A DNA stretch of 64,000 bases from Deltaproteobacteria bacterium (lineage in GTDB: Bacteria > Myxococcota_A > UBA9160 > UBA4427). The notes below the pieces were generated by a model, which did not search any database, was not told the DNA's origin, and saw only the letters and a list, made by a program, of their open reading frames with translations. Position 1 is the first letter of the stretch, and each line of letters begins with the position of its first letter. A program made the translations under genes and the position numbers. The DNA lies in assembly GCA_029261855.1 (NCBI GenBank), contig JAJDAN010000026.1, forward strand, positions 62,001 to 126,000, written 5' to 3'. Positions 2,455 to 10,127 of the stretch are shown one piece after another.

Positions 2455-2898
2455 ATGGCTCCCTCACTGAAGATGACGAAGCAGGAACGCCACGACTTCC
2501 TCGCCGGCGTGCACGTGGGCGTCATCAGCATCGACGATCCCGGCCGGGCACCGCTCGCGGCTCCCGTCTGGTACGCCTACACGCCGGAGAAGGGCGTGTG
2601 GCTCGTCACCGGCAAGGGGTCGAAGAAGGGAGTGGCGCTCGAGAAGGCCGGTCGCTTCAGCCTCGTCGCCCAGCAGGAAGACATGCCGTACAAGTACGTC
2701 AGCGTCGAAGGCCCGATCGTCGAGGTGCGGAAGGCAGGGCTCGAAGAAGACCGCCGCCCCATGGCGTGGCGCTACCTCGGCGAGGAATTCGGAAACTCGT
2801 ACGTCGAGAGCGGCAGCGGTGAAGACGAGTGGGTCTACCGCATGCAGCCCGAGCGCTGGCTGACTGTCGACTACGCCAAGATGCTACCCGGCGAATAG
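2455..2898 (+). CDS. Pyridoxamine 5'-phosphate oxidase-family (split beta-barrel) protein
   Basis: A 147-residue protein of the FMN- or F420-binding split-barrel superfamily. Typical features are the start KQERHDFLAGVHVGVISI, a substrate-contact strand APVWYAYTPEKGVWLVTG, the phosphate-binding region SKKGVALEKAGRFSLV, and the strand YKYVSVEGPIVEV. Length and order match small oxidases annotated as PPOX or F420-dependent proteins. The cofactor cannot be decided from sequence reading alone. It follows acsA by five bases and converges with the regulator on the opposite strand, leaving one base between the two stop codons. No pathway can be assigned. Confidence 0.75.
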   Translation: MAPSLKMTKQERHDFLAGVHVGVISIDDPGRAPLAAPVWYAYTPEKGVWLVTGKGSKKGVALEKAGRFSLVAQQEDMPYKYVSVEGPIVEVRKAGLEEDRRPMAWRYLGEEFGNSYVESGSGEDEWVYRMQPERWLTVDYAKMLPGE

Positions 2899-2899
2899 G

Positions 2900-5800
2900 C
2901 TACAGCCGGCAGCCGGTGGCTTCTTCCAGCTCGCGGCCTTCCCGGGCCAGGGCTTCTGCGCGGGTGCGGTCCCCGCGACGCTCGAGCAGCTTCGCGAAGT
3001 CCTGCTGGATGCGGGCCTGCATCGGTCTGGCGTGCATTCGCTTGGCGCCTTCGAGTGCGTGCTCGTAGTACTGCACCGCGAGATCCGCGACGCCTAGCAC
3101 CTCCTGCAGACGAGCCAGGCAGTAGCTGACCGGGCCGCCGTACAGCACGGGGATGGGCAGGATGCCGTGCAGCTCCTCCTCGGGTCCGAGCAACTTGACG
3201 AGCCGTTCGGCACGCGGGGCGTCGTCGAGATCTGCACACAAGTGCGCGGTTTCCACGAGGGTCCCGACCCATCGGATGCCCCGGGCCACGCCCTCGAAGT
3301 CATCCTCGGCAAGGTTCTCCCAAAGCTCGCGCGCGCCGCTCTCGTTGCCGAGGCGAAGCTCGGTGCGTCCCATGACGGCGCGCGCCCAGTGGTTCGGGCC
3401 GAGCTTCGAGGAAAGCGCCCGGGAAAAGAGCGGGCGGATGGCCTCGTGGTCCTGGCGGTAGCGGTACAGAAGCATCTGCTGACCGTTGAAGCAGGCCTGG
3501 GCGTAGGGATGCGTGATGCGGCGCCCGAGCAGCAGGGAGTCGGCCATCATCTGCTCGACCTCCAAGGTGCGGCCTTCGAGCAGCGCGAGACCCGCGTCGA
3601 AGACGCTCGTGTGCCAGGCGATGCTCGGCGAGGGCAGGTCCGACGCGAGCCGACCCGTCTCCTCGCGCATGGCGAGCGCTGCGTCGTGATCGCCGACGGA
3701 CAGGTGGTCGCAGGCGATGTCGAGCAGTGCGATCACGGCCGTGTCGTGGCTGTCCGACTGACGCGCAGCCTCCACCAGCTCGCGGGCCAGGTTGCGGCGT
3801 TCTTCGAGGTGGTCCGGGCCGGCGAGTGCGTAATGCAGGACGTAGAGCGTCTCCTGCAGGGTCTCTGGATCTTCACTCTCGCGACCGAGCCTCACTGCAT
3901 CGCGCGCGATCGCCAGACAGCCGGGATGCCGGATACCCAGATAGGCCTGCCTCGCCATCAAGCTCGCCCGCAGCGCGGTCGCATCGGCGTCCAGACCGGC
4001 CAGCGCCTCGTCGACGACCGCCGTTGCCTCGGAGTCTTCCGGCGACCATTCGTTGACATCGCAGAAGCGAACGGCGGCGAGCGCGAACTCGCGGGAGCGA
4101 CCGAGGGTGCGCGCGCTCTCCATCGCCCGGCGCGAGACTTCTCGCCGCTTCTCGCGATCTCCCGCGCGACGGTGGGCCTCTCCCAGCTCGATCAACACGG
4201 CCAGGCGCCGGTCCGGATTCACGATGTCGCCATGCTCCAGGGCATCGACGGCCTGCTCATAGTGGGTCGCCGCCTGCTCGTAGGCGAAGTTGCGGGCCGC
4301 TTCGTCGGCCGCAGCGATCGCGCACTCGAAAGCGAGCTCGGGGCTGCCAACGGCGAGGCTCTGATGATGATGATGCGCCAGCTCGGCAATCACAGGGGTC
4401 GGGTCGTCCGCGTGCTGGGACTCCAGACGCTCGGCCGCCCGGCAATGCAGACGCGCCCGCCGCCCCCGCTGCAGTCCCTCGTAGGCTGCCTCCTGGAACA
4501 ACGCGTGCACGAAGCGGTAGGTCGCCGGCGTGTCGGGGACCTCTTCGAGGACGCCCGAGGCAACCGCCTCGTCCATCAGGTCGAGCGCCTCTTCGCGCGA
4601 GATGTCGGCGACCGCTGCCACGGCAGCCAGTGGCAACTCGCGTCCCAGCACTGCGCCGGCTGCCACCAGCTCCGCGCAGGGCGGCGACAGGGCTTCGAGG
4701 GAGCGACGAATCAGGTCCACGGCGTGAGCCGGCAGGGTGATGCCGCGCCGCCGGATGCGTTCGGGCTGCTTGAGATCGCCTCGCTCCGCGAGCAGACGGA
4801 CCGCTTCCCGCACGAACAGGGGGACGCCCTCGCTGCGCGCGAACAGCTCGGAGGTCAGCTCGGCGGGCGCCGGCCGCCCGATCACCTCGCCGAGCAGCTG
4901 CCCGATGTCCCCGCGCGACAGACCGGTCAGCTCGACCTGGTCGCAACAGGCGTGTTTGCGCAGCACCGAGAGGCAGCGGCTCAGCGGGTGTCCGCGTTCT
5001 CGCGGCTCGTTCCGCACGGTGCCGATCAACAGCAACCGCGAATGTTCGACTTCGAACGACAGGTGCTCGAGCAGGCGAAGCGAAGGAGACTGCGCCCACT
5101 GCAGGTCTTCGAGCACGATGGTCACGGGCCGCGCCTTGCTCGCCTGGATGACGCCGCGAGCAACCGCATCGAAGAAGCGGAAACGCTGCTCGGGGTCGGC
5201 GCTGTTGCCCGAGCGCGCGAGCAGGTGCTCCCAGTCGTCGTCCTGCTCGACGAGACCCGCCTGCGCCAGGCCGCGCAGCGCCTGGGACCACAGCCAGAAG
5301 GCGGGCACGCCCTCACCGTCGCGGCTGCGGCCGAAGACCGCGAGCCCGCCCCGGTCGCTCACTTCGCGGGCGAAGACCTCGCTGAGACGCGTCTTCCCGA
5401 TACCTGCCGCGCCGCCGACCAGAACCAGACGCCCGTCGCCGGACTGCGCACGTCGCCAGGCCTCCCGAAGCTTTGCGAGCGCGTCCTCGCGTCCCACGAA
5501 CACGTCCCCGGACGCAACCTCCCGCGCCGGCACCGCTGCCGACCCGGGCCGAAAGTCGGATGTCGCCGCGACACGGGGTTCCGCCGCACGGCCCCTAATC
5601 TCGGCTACCTCGCCCGTGAACCGGTAGCCGCGCCGGGGGATGCTGCGAAGCAATGACCCTCTGTGGGTATCGTCGACCGCGCGCCGTGCATGGGACCCGG
5701 CGCGCGTCAGCGAGCTCGAGGTCACCGCGGTCTCGGGCCACAGCGCTTCGAAGAGCTCGTCCTGGGTCACTATCCTGTCGCGCTCGCGGACCAACAGGCA

Positions 5801-5902
5801 GAGCAGCGCGAAGGGCTTCGGCTGAAGGGACACGACCTCGCCGCCACGGCGCAGCTCGCCCGCCTGTTCGTCGAGCTCGAAGGCGCCGAAGCGGTAGATC
5901 AT
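2900..5902 (-). CDS. Winged-helix transcriptional regulator with AAA-type ATPase and TPR-like region
   Basis: About 1000 residues if translation starts at the ATG at 5902; an in-frame ATG at 5956 would add 18 residues that do not resemble the domain. The N-terminal 95 residues are an OmpR/CadC-type winged helix (YRFGAFELD, PKPFALLCLLV, then the wing RGYRFTGEV). A predicted NTPase follows, with Walker A GGAAGIGKTRL near residue 160 and Walker B IVLEDLQWAQ near 262. The C-terminal 500 residues are helical and Ala/Leu-rich, as in TPR signal-sensing arms of SARP/MalT-like regulators. No receiver domain is visible. The adjacent upstream genes encode two methyltransferases, which are plausible targets. 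Their promoter carries 11-bp-spaced direct repeats of the kind OmpR-type domains bind. Confidence 0.85.
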   Translation of the reverse strand: MIYRFGAFELDEQAGELRRGGEVVSLQPKPFALLCLLVRERDRIVTQDELFEALWPETAVTSSSLTRAGSHARRAVDDTHRGSLLRSIPRRGYRFTGEVAEIRGRAAEPRVAATSDFRPGSAAVPAREVASGDVFVGREDALAKLREAWRRAQSGDGRLVLVGGAAGIGKTRLSEVFAREVSDRGGLAVFGRSRDGEGVPAFWLWSQALRGLAQAGLVEQDDDWEHLLARSGNSADPEQRFRFFDAVARGVIQASKARPVTIVLEDLQWAQSPSLRLLEHLSFEVEHSRLLLIGTVRNEPRERGHPLSRCLSVLRKHACCDQVELTGLSRGDIGQLLGEVIGRPAPAELTSELFARSEGVPLFVREAVRLLAERGDLKQPERIRRRGITLPAHAVDLIRRSLEALSPPCAELVAAGAVLGRELPLAAVAAVADISREEALDLMDEAVASGVLEEVPDTPATYRFVHALFQEAAYEGLQRGRRARLHCRAAERLESQHADDPTPVIAELAHHHHQSLAVGSPELAFECAIAAADEAARNFAYEQAATHYEQAVDALEHGDIVNPDRRLAVLIELGEAHRRAGDREKRREVSRRAMESARTLGRSREFALAAVRFCDVNEWSPEDSEATAVVDEALAGLDADATALRASLMARQAYLGIRHPGCLAIARDAVRLGRESEDPETLQETLYVLHYALAGPDHLEERRNLARELVEAARQSDSHDTAVIALLDIACDHLSVGDHDAALAMREETGRLASDLPSPSIAWHTSVFDAGLALLEGRTLEVEQMMADSLLLGRRITHPYAQACFNGQQMLLYRYRQDHEAIRPLFSRALSSKLGPNHWARAVMGRTELRLGNESGARELWENLAEDDFEGVARGIRWVGTLVETAHLCADLDDAPRAERLVKLLGPEEELHGILPIPVLYGGPVSYCLARLQEVLGVADLAVQYYEHALEGAKRMHARPMQARIQQDFAKLLERRGDRTRAEALAREGRELEEATGCRL

Positions 5903-5931
5903 CGCCGGCAGAGAGTAACAGCGACCCACGC

Positions 5932-5966
5932 AAAACGGCGCGCTGGCCCTCGCCAACGCGCCGTTT
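5932..5966 (-). terminator. Hairpin terminator candidate after the methyltransferase gene
   Basis: A perfect 10-bp inverted repeat, AAACGGCGCG and CGCGCCGTTT, with a 14-base loop lies between the methyltransferase stop and the regulator start. Read on the minus strand the second arm runs into TTTT, a short U tract. This fits an intrinsic terminator that separates the methyltransferase pair from the regulator gene, although the U tract is weak. Confidence 0.6.
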
Positions 5967-5983
5967 CCTGGTGGACCTGCGAA

Positions 5984-7054
5984 CTACTTGCGTGCCAGGT
6001 AGTAGTAGTTCATGGCGTCGTGGGGAAGCTCTCGCACGCTCACGTTCCCAAAGCCCGCGGTGGCGAGCATCGAGCAGGCGAGCTCCTTGCCCCACATGGC
6101 GCCGAGCCCCGCGCCGTCCGCGGACAACGAGACCGTCATGCAATGCATGCACGAGATCGTATACAGGAAGGGCGCCATGGCGTTGTCACGGTCCGTGTGG
6201 ACATGGCTCGAGCCCGCGATGTCCTGCATCAGGAAGAGGCCGTCGTCGCGCAGCGCGCGGGACAGCCCGCTGAGCACCACGTCCGGACGGGCCTGGTCGT
6301 GGATCGCGTCGAAGGCCGTGACGAGGTCGAAGGCAGCATCGACCTCGAGGTCCGCGACGTCGCGGAGCTCGAAGTGGACGTTGCCGAGGCCGCGGGTGGC
6401 CGCCTGGGACTTGCCCGCGGCGATGCCCTCGGACGACAGGTCGTAGCCCACGAAGCGGCTGTTGGGGAAGGCTTCGGCCATGAGGTTGAGCGCACGCCCG
6501 CTGCCGCAGCCGACATCGAGCACGTCGATGCCGCGTTCGAGCGCATTCACCACACCGGGGATACCCGGCAGGATTTCGTCGAGCAGGACCGCGACCACGG
6601 ACTGGTCGCTCTCCTCGGCCATGACCGCGTGGAAGCGGTCATAGGCCGAGTAGGGCACGCCGCCGCCGTGCTCGAAGCACGAGACGATCTGGTCCTCCAC
6701 GCCTGCCAGCACCGGGATCCACTGACAGGTGGCCGCCATGTTGTTCGGCCGCGCCTCGCGGGTCAGCGACGCCGCATGCTCCAGGGGCAGGGCGTAGCTG
6801 TCGCTCGCTTCGTCGAAGCCGACGATGCCGCTCGTCACCATGGCGCCGAGCCATTCGCGGACATACCGCTCGTCGAGGCCGGCCTCACTGGCGATGCCCT
6901 GGCTGCCCTGGGGCGCGATTCGCGCCATCACGTCGAAGAGGCCGGTTCGATGCCCCACCGAGATCATCAGGGCGCTGGCCGCGCCATTGAGGATGTCCAC
7001 CATCCTTCCGCCGAACGCCTCGGCGCGGGCCTTGTCGAAGTCTTGCGTACTCAT
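5984..7054 (-). CDS. Class I SAM-dependent methyltransferase with N-terminal winged-helix domain
   Basis: A 356-residue protein starting at the ATG at 7054. Residues 20-90 form a winged-helix dimerisation module (GLFDVMARI, then ERYVREWLGAMVTSGIV). The catalytic Rossmann domain carries the SAM motif DVLDVGCGSG near residue 176, an acidic motif FVGYDLS and the post-motif FDLVTAFDAIHDQ. This is the layout of small-molecule O-, N- or S-methyltransferases rather than of DNA or rRNA enzymes. It is encoded 68 bases downstream of an MddA-type methyltransferase on the same strand, so both probably share a promoter. A role in thiol or sulfide methylation is possible by context only. The substrate is not readable from sequence. 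Confidence 0.85.
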   Translation of the reverse strand: MSTQDFDKARAEAFGGRMVDILNGAASALMISVGHRTGLFDVMARIAPQGSQGIASEAGLDERYVREWLGAMVTSGIVGFDEASDSYALPLEHAASLTREARPNNMAATCQWIPVLAGVEDQIVSCFEHGGGVPYSAYDRFHAVMAEESDQSVVAVLLDEILPGIPGVVNALERGIDVLDVGCGSGRALNLMAEAFPNSRFVGYDLSSEGIAAGKSQAATRGLGNVHFELRDVADLEVDAAFDLVTAFDAIHDQARPDVVLSGLSRALRDDGLFLMQDIAGSSHVHTDRDNAMAPFLYTISCMHCMTVSLSADGAGLGAMWGKELACSMLATAGFGNVSVRELPHDAMNYYYLARK

Positions 7055-7122
7055 CGTCGCGTCTCCGGTATCGAGCCGTGGCCCGAGTTGCGTGAAGCTC
7101 GCAGGTGGATCGAGCGGGCGGG

Positions 7123-7887
7123 TCAGGCCGCGCCACGGACGCGAGCGGGCTGCTCGCGCCGCCCCCCGAAGCGGGGGATGAACTTGGGCGTGCGCGCGCG
7201 GTACTCGCGGTACTCGTTGCCGAGCAGGTCCCCGAGGTCGCGTTCTTCGAAGAGAATCGCGACGAGGATGTAGCCGGTGGTGCCGATGGCCAGGAGCAGG
7301 TGCCCGGCAGTCATGTCCGGCGTCGCCCAGAAGGTGACGAACCAACCGACGTAGAGCGGGTGCCGGATGTACTTGTACAGCGAAGGCGTGACGAAGCTCT
7401 TCTCGGTGTACGGCCGGCCACGGAAGTACAACACGACCTGGCGCAGCCCGAACAGGTCGAAGTGATCGATCAGGAAGGTCGAGTAGAGCACGAGTGCGGC
7501 GCCAGCCAGGAAGACGCCTGTCAAGACGGTGCGAGCGGTCTCGTCCGTCACCGAGTAGATGACCTGCGGCAGGGGCTGCCAGGCCCAGAAGAGCAGGATG
7601 AACGCCACGCTGCTCGCCAGCACATAGGTGGCGCGCTCGGCAGGCTGCGGGATGACGCGCGTGATCCAGCGCTTGAAGAAGGGGCGAGCCATCACGCTGT
7701 GCTGCAGCGCGAAGACGGTGAGCAGGAGACCGTTGACGGCGATTGCGGCCGGCCAGCCGACCCACTCGCCCGTATCGATGGACTTGGGGACGACCAGATT
7801 CCCGATGAACCCGATGGAATAGAGGAAGGTCGCGAAGAAGATCGCGTACGTGATGAATGCGTAGAGCAGGACGGCGGTGCGCTTCAT
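7123..7887 (-). CDS. mddA: Methanethiol S-methyltransferase (MddA-like integral membrane enzyme)
   Basis: A 254-residue polytopic membrane protein with about five hydrophobic segments, related to isoprenylcysteine carboxyl methyltransferases. MddA enzymes methylate methanethiol to dimethyl sulfide using SAM. The C-terminal signature is present: YKYIRHPLYVGW near residue 170, FWATPDMTAGHLL, GYILVAILFEERDLGDLLG, and YREYRARTPKFIP. The N-terminal ALQHSVMARPFFKRW is also typical. The MddA subgroup is more specific than the generic ICMT or NnrU label because of the FWATPDMT and EERDL blocks. The ATG at 7887 follows GGAGAAAACGCC. The gene heads a probable operon with the class I methyltransferase. 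Confidence 0.75.
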   Translation of the reverse strand: MKRTAVLLYAFITYAIFFATFLYSIGFIGNLVVPKSIDTGEWVGWPAAIAVNGLLLTVFALQHSVMARPFFKRWITRVIPQPAERATYVLASSVAFILLFWAWQPLPQVIYSVTDETARTVLTGVFLAGAALVLYSTFLIDHFDLFGLRQVVLYFRGRPYTEKSFVTPSLYKYIRHPLYVGWFVTFWATPDMTAGHLLLAIGTTGYILVAILFEERDLGDLLGNEYREYRARTPKFIPRFGGRREQPARVRGAA

Positions 7888-7980
7888 GGCGTTTTCTCCG
7901 ATCTCGAATCCCCGGGTGCTGACCCGGGGGTTGCGGTGGAAGGAACGCCGGGAACATCGCCAGATCCGGCAGACCGCGCG

Positions 7981-8008
7981 TTACCGCGGCCTTACCGTTT
8001 CCGTACCG
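7981..8008. promoter_or_regulatory. Three direct repeats with 11-bp period upstream of mddA
   Basis: TTACCG at 7981 and 7992 is followed by GTACCG at 8003, giving exact 11-bp spacing between equivalent bases. Direct repeats of about one helical turn are the usual target of OmpR/PhoB-type winged-helix domains. The large regulator encoded just beyond the methyltransferase pair has exactly such a domain, so this is a reasonable binding site. The assignment is inferred. Confidence 0.5.
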
Positions 8009-8016
8009 TCGCCGAG

Positions 8017-8022
8017 ATCATA
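8017..8022 (-). promoter_or_regulatory. Possible -10 box (TATGAT) for mddA
   Basis: On the minus strand TATGAT lies in a locally A/T-rich patch about 130 bases before the mddA start. No good -35 box sits 16-18 bases upstream. If this is the promoter, the direct repeats at 7981-8008 lie just downstream of it, a repressor-like position. Weak evidence. Confidence 0.25.
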
Positions 8023-8044
8023 AAACGCTTGTATTTGCGGTTAG

Positions 8045-8671
8045 TTACAGATCGGCAGGGAGAAGGGCAGGGGTCGGGTCGCTGCTGGTGCGGACGACTC
8101 CCCAGCGGCCGGACGACCGCCGGGTCAGCTGGACGATGCACCCGAGCGCTGGGACGCCGTCGGGCAGCTCGGCGCCGAGCACCCGGCGCGCGATGGCCCG
8201 GATGACGCCCTTGTGGACCACCACGAGCACCGACGAGACGCCGCTCGCGAACAGGACGTCCACCGCCCGGTCGACCCGGACCTGGAGGTCCGCTCGCCGC
8301 TCGCCACCCGGGAAATCGAAACCGGGACGCTGCTGCTGCCAGTCCTCGTAGCGAACGGGGTCCCGCGCCCGGATCTCGTCCGCCGTGAGCCCCTCCCAGT
8401 CGCCGAAGTCGATCTCGCGCAGCTCGTCGAGCAGCCGAGCCGGCGCCTGGGGGAAGACGATTCGTGCCGATTCCCAGGCGCGGGAGAGCGGGCTCGTCAC
8501 CAGCAAGGGAAAGCCATCGCCTGGCAGCGCGAACCTCGCCTGGCGCATCTGCTCGCGCCCCAGGTCAGAAAGCGGCACGTCGGTGGCCCCGTAGTAGCGG
8601 ATACTCGATTCCCCCACGGTTTCACCATGGCGAACCAGGACGATGCGATTGAGCGGGCTGCCGTCGAGCAT
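8045..8671 (-). CDS. Histidine phosphatase family protein (phosphoglycerate mutase superfamily)
   Basis: A 208-residue protein with the phosphohistidine motif VLVRHGET near the N-terminus, the spacing PLSDLGREQ, the strand LVTSPLSRAWESA, the Glu-bearing LREIDFGDWEG and the second His in VLVVVHKGVIRAI. All four residues needed for phosphoryl transfer (Arg-His, Arg, Glu, His) are present. The best match is the CobC/broad-specificity phosphatase group rather than glycolytic mutases, given the short length and DFGDWEG. No cobalamin genes are nearby, so alpha-ribazole phosphatase activity is unsupported. It is divergent from the M23 peptidase gene. Confidence 0.85.
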   Translation of the reverse strand: MLDGSPLNRIVLVRHGETVGESSIRYYGATDVPLSDLGREQMRQARFALPGDGFPLLVTSPLSRAWESARIVFPQAPARLLDELREIDFGDWEGLTADEIRARDPVRYEDWQQQRPGFDFPGGERRADLQVRVDRAVDVLFASGVSSVLVVVHKGVIRAIARRVLGAELPDGVPALGCIVQLTRRSSGRWGVVRTSSDPTPALLPADL

Positions 8672-8762
8672 CGCGCGGGAGGATCCGTGAGCCGCAGGGC
8701 CACGTCAACGCGCCGCGCATGCGTTGCTATCGTGCCCGACTCGCCCCCCGGCGGAGAACCCA

Positions 8763-10127
8763 TTGACCTTCCGATTCTGGCTCCTGATCCTGCTGCTCGT
8801 CGCGATCGTGGCGGCGCTCGTCGTCATCGTTCCGCGTCTCGAGGGCGAGGAGCCGACGATCGCCGAGACCGCGCCTGCGGTACTGGGCCCCGACGCCACG
8901 ACCCTGGTGGTCGAGATATCCGACGAGGATTCTGGGCTGCGCTCGGTTCAGGTGCGGCTCGTCTCGAACGGCGAGAGCCAGACCCTCGTCGAGCGCCACC
9001 ATCCGGGCACTTTCATGACGGGTGGCGCGACGGGGATCGAGACGATCGAAGTACCGCTGGATGCAGAGGCGCTCGGGCTCAGCGACGGCAAGGCGACGAT
9101 CGTCGTGACGGCGCGCGACTGGTCTCTGCGGGACGGGCTCGCCGGCAACCTCGCCGAGCGCGAGATCGAGCTGACCGTGGATACCTCCCCCCCGAAGCTC
9201 GACGTGGGGAGCGGTCTCACCTACATCCAGCGAGGCGGCTCGGGTGCAGCCGTCTACCGGGTCGGCGAGCCAACGGCGAGCGACGGTGTCCGGGTCGCAG
9301 ACTTCTTCTTTCAGGGACACCCCATCAGTCAGGCAGCCGACGCCGACCCGTTGCTGCGTGTTGCCATCTTCGCGATCCCCGTCGAGGCGCCCGCGGACCC
9401 CCAGGTCCGGGTGGTGGCGCGCGACGCGGCCGGCAACGAGAGCGAAGGCAGCTTCCCGGTGCGCATTTCCGACCGGGACTTCGACGACAGCACCATCCGC
9501 CTGGGCCAGCGCTTTCTCGACGACAAGGTCCGCCCGCTGGCCGAAAAGAACGGACTCGCCGGGCGCACGGACGCGGAATCGTTCCAGGGCGTGAACGAGA
9601 CCCTACGCGCGCGCAACGAGGAACGCATCCGCGCGGTGATCGAGAACGCGACTTCGACCAAGCACTGGCAGGGCAGTTTCGCGCAGATGGCGAACTCGAA
9701 GGTCACGAGCCGCTTCGCAGAGCGCCGCACCTATCTCTGGCAGGACCGGCCCATCTCGAAAGCCATCCACTACGGCTTCGATCTCGCCAGCACCAGTGGC
9801 GCACCGGTGACCGCCTCGAACGCCGGGGTCGTCGTCTTCGCCGACGATCTCGGCATCTACGGGCAATGCGTGATCGTCGATCACGGTCTCGGCGTGCACT
9901 CCCTCTACGCGCACCTCCGCAGCATGGACGTGGCAGCCGGGGACGAGGTCGCGCGTGGGCAGACCCTCGGACGTTCCGGCGCGACGGGCCTCGCCGGCGG
10001 CGATCACCTGCACTTCGCCATCCTGGTAGGCGGACAGTACGTCGACCCCCTCGAATGGTGGGACGCGAAATGGGTGCGCTCCCACGTGGAGTGGCGCCTC
10101 GACCCCGACGCCGCGCCTGGAGGATGA
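8763..10127 (+). CDS. Membrane-anchored M23 (LytM) family metallopeptidase
   Basis: The preferred start is TTG at 8763, seven bases after GGAG; a TTG at 8724 in the same frame lacks a ribosome site. Residues 4-24 form one transmembrane anchor. Two Ig-like regions follow (residues 40-135 and 140-235), and the C-terminal 110 residues are the LytM domain: HYGFDLAS near 335, SLYAHL, and the final HLHFAI near 415. All Zn ligands (HxxxD and HxH) are present, so it is probably an active endopeptidase acting on peptidoglycan cross-links in the periplasm. Its stop overlaps sfsA by an ATGA junction. This is the first gene of a four-gene overlapping run. Confidence 0.85.
   Translation: MTFRFWLLILLLVAIVAALVVIVPRLEGEEPTIAETAPAVLGPDATTLVVEISDEDSGLRSVQVRLVSNGESQTLVERHHPGTFMTGGATGIETIEVPLDAEALGLSDGKATIVVTARDWSLRDGLAGNLAEREIELTVDTSPPKLDVGSGLTYIQRGGSGAAVYRVGEPTASDGVRVADFFFQGHPISQAADADPLLRVAIFAIPVEAPADPQVRVVARDAAGNESEGSFPVRISDRDFDDSTIRLGQRFLDDKVRPLAEKNGLAGRTDAESFQGVNETLRARNEERIRAVIENATSTKHWQGSFAQMANSKVTSRFAERRTYLWQDRPISKAIHYGFDLASTSGAPVTASNAGVVVFADDLGIYGQCVIVDHGLGVHSLYAHLRSMDVAAGDEVARGQTLGRSGATGLAGGDHLHFAILVGGQYVDPLEWWDAKWVRSHVEWRLDPDAAPGG

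Follow-up and report, generated by a model that had tools for sequence, protein, structure and literature searches.

In a 64,000-nucleotide stretch of DNA from a deltaproteobacterium (the whole stretch analysed, called the window below), a gene for an MddA-type methyltransferase is followed by one for an Rv2258c-type methyltransferase (the partner) and one for a large regulator, in this order of transcription and all on the minus strand. New here is the control region in front of them, which consists of three 11-bp direct repeats and a -10-like hexamer at a fixed distance. On balance, with modest confidence, we read the locus as a dedicated, switchable operon for the methylation and detoxification of thiols or chalcogenides. 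We found no report of an mddA operon with a regulator in the open-licence PubMed Central literature. MddA is described as membrane-bound (PMC5607357). MddA and MddH are reported to S-methylate H2S and methanethiol, earlier work found transcription of mddA and mddH raised by H2S and/or methanethiol, and detoxification has been proposed as their role (PMC12904073).

The three genes and their products

Table 1. Features of the locus (positions in the window).
Feature	Position	Strand	Description
Putative operator	7979..8008	(-)	CGGTACGGAAA CGGTAAGGCCG CGGTAACG; three direct repeats, 11-bp period (CGGTAAG plus 4 bp), upstream of mddA
Putative -10-like hexamer	7953..7958	(-)	GATGTT; fixed distance from third repeat
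mddA	7123..7887	(-)	254 aa; by family a membrane S-methyltransferase, methanethiol to dimethyl sulfide (predicted)
mddA/methyltransferase gap	7055..7122	(-)	68 bp
Rv2258c-type class I methyltransferase, N-terminal winged-helix domain	5984..7054	(-)	356 aa; PF21320 and Methyltransf_31
Methyltransferase/regulator gap	5903..5983	(-)	81 bp
Regulator: OmpR-type winged-helix DNA-binding domain, AAA_16 ATPase, TPR-like C-terminal part	2900..5902	(-)	1000 aa; Pfam and orthologues in relatives

A GGAG ribosome-site-like stretch precedes the ATG of both mddA and the methyltransferase gene, and these two and the regulator gene all have coding-like GC content by codon position. The earlier note had placed two methyltransferase genes within 5984-8022; both are real and lie there on the minus strand. 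The 657-aa open reading frame listed at 5984-7957 extends the methyltransferase frame beyond its own start codon (ATG at 7054) into upstream sequence. The regulator gene begins on the same strand 81 bp downstream of the methyltransferase gene; operator and terminator scans detected neither a second operator nor a terminator-like site in this gap or in that between the two methyltransferase genes.

The product of mddA matches the NCBIfam equivalog NF045656 from position 1 to 238 of 238, with 332.2 bits against a cut-off of 270, which bears out its naming as an MddA-type enzyme. That this family makes dimethyl sulfide from methanethiol is sound, and the same function is predicted for the window's MddA. 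It is the single NF045656 match in its own genome and also matches the NnrU family in the Pfam scan (32.6 against 24.7). Hydrophobic segments are found in its sequence, and its structural model is helical (pLDDT 89.2). The best structural matches of this model, with Z 11.3 to a sterol reductase (4quv) and Z 10.0 to Ma-ICMT (4a2n, rmsd 2.2 over 121 residues), are no higher than chance can produce among helical models. The full-length equivalog match is common to known MddA and to this protein, whereas here a second methyltransferase and a dedicated regulator stand alongside.

The earlier note rightly took this second enzyme, the partner, for a class I methyltransferase that has a winged-helix module and is encoded in the same orientation: a Rv2258c-like winged-helix domain (PF21320) and Methyltransf_31 are matched over the full length, by Pfam and by structure. 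Its AlphaFold model (pLDDT 94.0) fits best the complex of Rv2258c with SAH (5f8e; Z 46.8, rmsd 1.2, 51% identity over 348 residues), and the layout of a winged helix plus a Rossmann part is common to the partner and Rv2258c of Mycobacterium tuberculosis (PDB 5f8c/5f8e/5f8f). Rv2258c has, to our knowledge, no assigned substrate. The next solved homologue is TnmJ (Z 41.2), an enzyme of enediyne biosynthesis. Further matches at Z 25-27 are plant-type O-methyltransferases, DsyB (7wdq, Z 25.9) and the 'Holomycin methyltransferase DtpM' (8rdm, Z 25.0), the latter two of which methylate sulfur. This fold group is made up mostly of O-methyltransferases and includes O-, N- and C-methyltransferases of bulky substrates; sharing the fold does not give the substrate.

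Among 25 aligned partner sequences, H252, H304 and the SAM-site residues are invariant, and either histidine could, judging from the alignment, serve as base. A conserved cysteine as thiol ligand was considered and dropped because C302 and C305 vary in the same 25 rows. Its fold, matched to Rv2258c and plant-type O-methyltransferases, and the biology of that fold point to dimerisation or capping of the substrate, and not to DNA reading, as the most likely role of the winged-helix module. Like the partner, MddH, MddM1, MddM2 and TMT1A/B are SAM-dependent class I enzymes (PMC12904073). MddM1 and MddM2 measure 210 and 204 aa (PMC12904073) and are not known to have a winged-helix domain, in contrast to the 356 aa and winged-helix domain of the partner, which thus falls outside the small class I type of about 204-210 aa.

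The large regulator, named as a third element in the earlier note, has its place confirmed by orthologues that lie beside mddA and/or the methyltransferase gene in relatives. Pfam assigns it a Trans_reg_C domain (41.9 against 26.2) and an AAA_16 domain (89.4 against 32.6), while TPR_12 scores just under its cut-off (29.9 against 30.1 bits) and the Pfam scan found no BTA domain at E 0.001. An OmpR-type domain and a nucleotide-binding part are common to this regulator and to the SARP-LAL/AfsR regulators PimR and AfsR, and AfsR also has a TPR part. These regulators target antibiotic clusters, whereas the present one goes with a methyltransferase operon and has no BTA domain match; since no BTA domain is recognisable, we call it SARP-like in layout and operator and do not file it as a SARP member. 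In AfsR, which has nucleotide-binding and TPR parts and binds 11-bp repeats overlapping the -35 element, the C-terminal parts inhibit the protein and ATP relieves the inhibition (PMC10936776).

Conservation of the gene set

The search covered 96 related genomes and the one that contains the window, 97 in all. Of these, 27 have an MddA over the cut-off, and 20 have matches to the methyltransferase, 22 matches altogether. Twelve methyltransferase copies, the window's included, had at least 57% identity, and eleven of these lie beside an mddA over the cut-off and an orthologous regulator, the exception being that of genome G008. Not one of the ten matches at 52% identity or less lies beside an MddA over the cut-off. 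The pairing of mddA with this methyltransferase is not due to chance. In a sample of 377 genomes of the phylum, matches to the methyltransferase reach E 1e-95 or better in 16.

Seen from mddA, the comparison covered 34 loci, the window and 33 fetched stretches (L111-L143), 30 over the NF045656 cut-off and four under it (L140-L143). An orthologous regulator is alongside in twelve (window, L114, L117, L119, L121, L122, L124, L125, L127, L132, L137 and L142); contig ends truncate it in L119 and L122. The methyltransferase is present as well in eleven of the twelve, all except L142, and in none of the 22 mddA loci lacking the regulator, some of which end soon after mddA (L118 and L135, for example, are cut at contig ends). 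Eight loci have the regulator gene downstream on the same strand; L142 has it upstream, also on that strand, and L114, L127 and L132 have it upstream in divergent orientation; the gene set is kept while its order changes. Families f1, f4, f5, f6, f7 and f12 all contain the set. Three rows (L116, L128 and L136) were left out of the MddA alignment; L116 and L128 contain a stop in the stretch used.

The locus L142 has the regulator and the operator before an mddA-like gene under the NF045656 cut-off (227.5 against 270) and no methyltransferase gene. Directly downstream of this mddA-like gene, in the methyltransferase's place, lies a gene for a luciferase-like oxidoreductase (8763-9650, plus strand), whose best NCBIfam match is an F420-type family, under the cut-off; its score as dimethylsulfone monooxygenase SfnG was far under the cut-off, and this assignment was rejected. 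Some neighbourhoods hold further genes. In three genomes of one family, an additional class I methyltransferase gene, which encodes 204-207 aa, lies between mddA and the partner gene (L121 5483-6106, L122 1594-2205, L125 797-1411); compared by size alone, MddM1 and MddM2 are nearer to this extra enzyme. L111, L118 and L126 have mddA without this regulator and, divergently alongside, a different Trans_reg_C-type winged-helix gene, which in L118 encodes a 516-aa protein with TPR repeats. In L128, an AAA protein 36% alike to the middle part of the regulator is encoded about 2.2 kb from mddA; it has no winged-helix domain and was not counted as a regulator. Inspection by eye of the neighbour clusters with at least four loci showed no recurrent sulfur gene.

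Rv2258c-type methyltransferases are known in mycobacteria. We looked at the best 80 of 452 relatives of the partner, which lie on contigs titled as many bacterial phyla and as ammonia-oxidising archaea. An mddA-like gene is near six of these 80, at four loci of Myxococcota/Deltaproteobacteria, at L009 and at L051; none is near the other 74, some of whose stretches are cut by contig ends. L009 has the methyltransferase gene followed by the mddA-like gene (49% identity). In L051 the mddA-like gene lies about 5.2 kb upstream, and a more distant winged-helix/AAA regulator is encoded just downstream. Two Acidobacteria loci (L013 and L063) have a divergent OmpR-type winged-helix gene alongside their Rv2258c-type genes. 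Linkage to mddA needs three changes on a tree with 92 rows, against a mean of 12.4 after shuffling; of the 89 inner branches of this tree, 20 are starred and 33 open. Most of the linked rows, 11 out of 13, group in a single part of it.

At L042 (187-5618), the G008 exception, two Rv2258c-like methyltransferase genes follow the operator and the gene of an orthologous regulator with 42% identity. The first, P0006, encodes 372 aa with a weak, over-cut-off match to PF21320; the second is a copy of the window's type that seems to belong to another branch of the family. This copy groups with Chloroflexota, Marinobacter, Actinomycetota and Thermomicrobiota, not with Myxococcota, at a support of 85-90, under the starred level. 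No mddA is found at L042, nor any over the cut-off in the genome G008. Regulator and operator thus stand before methyltransferases without mddA, which makes the partner part of the regulon in its own right.

The control region

Over 14 aligned loci, in which the row of L115 is possibly set one repeat off, the triplet reads roughly GGTAAGGAAT CGGTAAGG.. CGGTAA.G. At a constant distance follows the -10-like hexamer, with A at its second position (column 51) in 13 of 14 loci and T at its last (column 55) in all 14. The loci for a leave-one-out test were first picked by eye and by a consensus scan, so that their choice was not blind; near kin (window and L119, L121 and L122) were removed together, and L125, with no upstream DNA, and L185 did not enter. 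All 13 sites, those of twelve operons with the regulator alongside and of L176 without it, scored above all of 300 shuffles (18.0-38.3). The window's operator scored 35.9, which no shuffle reached; the weaker sites, at 18.0-19.9, are those of L114, L124, L132 and L142. Among 20 control mddA promoters without a regulator alongside, 19 scored 6.0 or less, the marginal ones being L111 (6.0, reached by 2 of 200 shuffles) and L139 (5.5, by 5 of 200). The remaining control, L115, scored 14.7, reached by 0 of 200 shuffles; part of a regulator is encoded on a different contig of its genome.

In genome G054, two mddA copies are apparently broken (L176 4859-5319, L185 1-721), where sequencing error is possible; at L176 the operator still stands before the broken gene and no regulator lies in the 10 kb covered. 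In L127 a 152-aa open reading frame without Pfam or NCBIfam match (8761-9219, minus strand) lies between the operator and mddA.

A pattern search for the operator in the window's own genome returned the window site (two overlapping matches) and two matches with one mismatch, against 7 and 8 for the controls. A longer pattern gave 11 matches in the 97 genomes, six of them at mddA, against 12 for its reversed control; the pattern alone is therefore not specific and stands at chance level away from mddA. A clean copy in genome G040 precedes an unrelated secreted-protein gene, and related regulators may thus share the motif. The G040 stretch (L175, minus strand) has operator-like triplets at 5193 and 8252, before the secreted-protein gene and before another unrelated gene.

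No second operator was found before the methyltransferase or the regulator gene in the window, and neither a canonical sigma-70 promoter nor a terminator-like site in 2500-8800 (shuffles give 0.4 and 2.1); this fits a single activator-dependent unit and proves nothing. The main operator of PimR, a SARP-LAL activator, consists of three CGGCAAG heptamers with 4-bp spacers (PMC5930380). Sites of SARP, AfsR and PimR activators and the present operator have the same layout, direct repeats of 11-bp period near the -10/-35 region, and by this analogy the operon likely has one activator-dependent promoter, of which the regulator is the likely activator. The idea of one promoter in the earlier note is upheld to the extent that a single conserved control region lies in front of the operon, as the leave-one-out test and the lack of a second operator in the window indicate.

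Proposed mechanism, rival readings and meaning

From the gene families, the conserved set and the conserved operator and hexamer we infer binding, activation, co-transcription, an inducer and a substrate of the partner as follows. The AAA/TPR-like part of the regulator would sense a stress or a small molecule, for which sulfide, methanethiol and other thiols or chalcogenides are candidates. Its winged-helix domain would then occupy the three 11-bp repeats adjoining the -35 region, recruiting RNA polymerase to a promoter that has no good -35 box, with joint transcription of mddA, the methyltransferase gene and probably the regulator gene itself. In the membrane, MddA would S-methylate methanethiol (and H2S) to dimethyl sulfide, which would diffuse off, and the soluble Rv2258c-type enzyme would methylate another nucleophile that comes with this stress. 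A thiol or a similar small molecule, which need not be sulfide, is the likeliest candidate. A bolder proposal takes Rv2258c-type methyltransferases as sulfide/thiol (or selenide) S-methyltransferases, joined here with MddA and a STAND-like activator in the first dedicated inducible sulfur-gas methylation operon; we judge this unlikely.

The earlier note had suggested a two-step route in which the partner methylates H2S to methanethiol, from which MddA then makes dimethyl sulfide. The conserved pair behind one operator, the mddA linkage at three places on the tree and the presence of DsyB and DtpM in the fold group speak for this route. Moreover, no methionine gamma-lyase over the cut-off was found in the 98.6% complete genome (best score 388.9 against 549.7), so that another source of methanethiol would be useful. 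However, MddA is reported to take both H2S and methanethiol (PMC12904073), and a second enzyme is then not needed; the partner is unlike MddM1 and MddM2 in size and domains, 74 of the best 80 of its 452 relatives show no mddA nearby, some in stretches cut by contig ends, and fold matches at 17-18% identity give no substrate. A supply of methanethiol from sulfide by the partner is therefore unsupported, and the route as a whole unlikely. The substrate may be a toxic thiol or phenol of larger size, such as an antibiotic-like compound or a xenobiotic, though we would not count on it; the operon would then be a general methylation defence with MddA for the volatile part. The bulky substrates within the fold group, the homology to TnmJ and the two such methyltransferases at L042 without mddA agree with such a defence, but no biosynthetic or resistance-looking gene was seen by eye among the neighbour clusters of four or more loci.

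Two further readings concern the company the genes keep. That they are neighbours by descent, with no shared chemistry, would suit the concentration of most linked rows (11 of 13) in a single part of the tree; we hold it to be quite improbable, as six families retain the set and the operator although the gene order differs, the regulator being either downstream or divergent, and as two further linkages exist at L009 and L051 (the latter at about 5.2 kb). A mainly regulatory partner, whose winged helix, named as such in Pfam, binds DNA while its methyltransferase half senses SAM, is very improbable indeed: L142 retains regulator and operator without it, H252, H304 and the SAM-site residues do not vary, and its best structural match is an SAH complex.

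For the thiol or chalcogenide methylation operon that we favour, the conserved regulator with its readable operator makes the inducer of mddA testable, and the control of mddA is little described, in the literature consulted, beyond induction by H2S and/or methanethiol (PMC12904073). The neighbourhood of the gene pair suggests a hint on a widespread, unexplained enzyme family: the partner family is broadly distributed, and its company with MddA offers a concrete assay. Should the partner methylate thiols, its family would have to be counted in when biological dimethyl sulfide production and sulfide detoxification are estimated.
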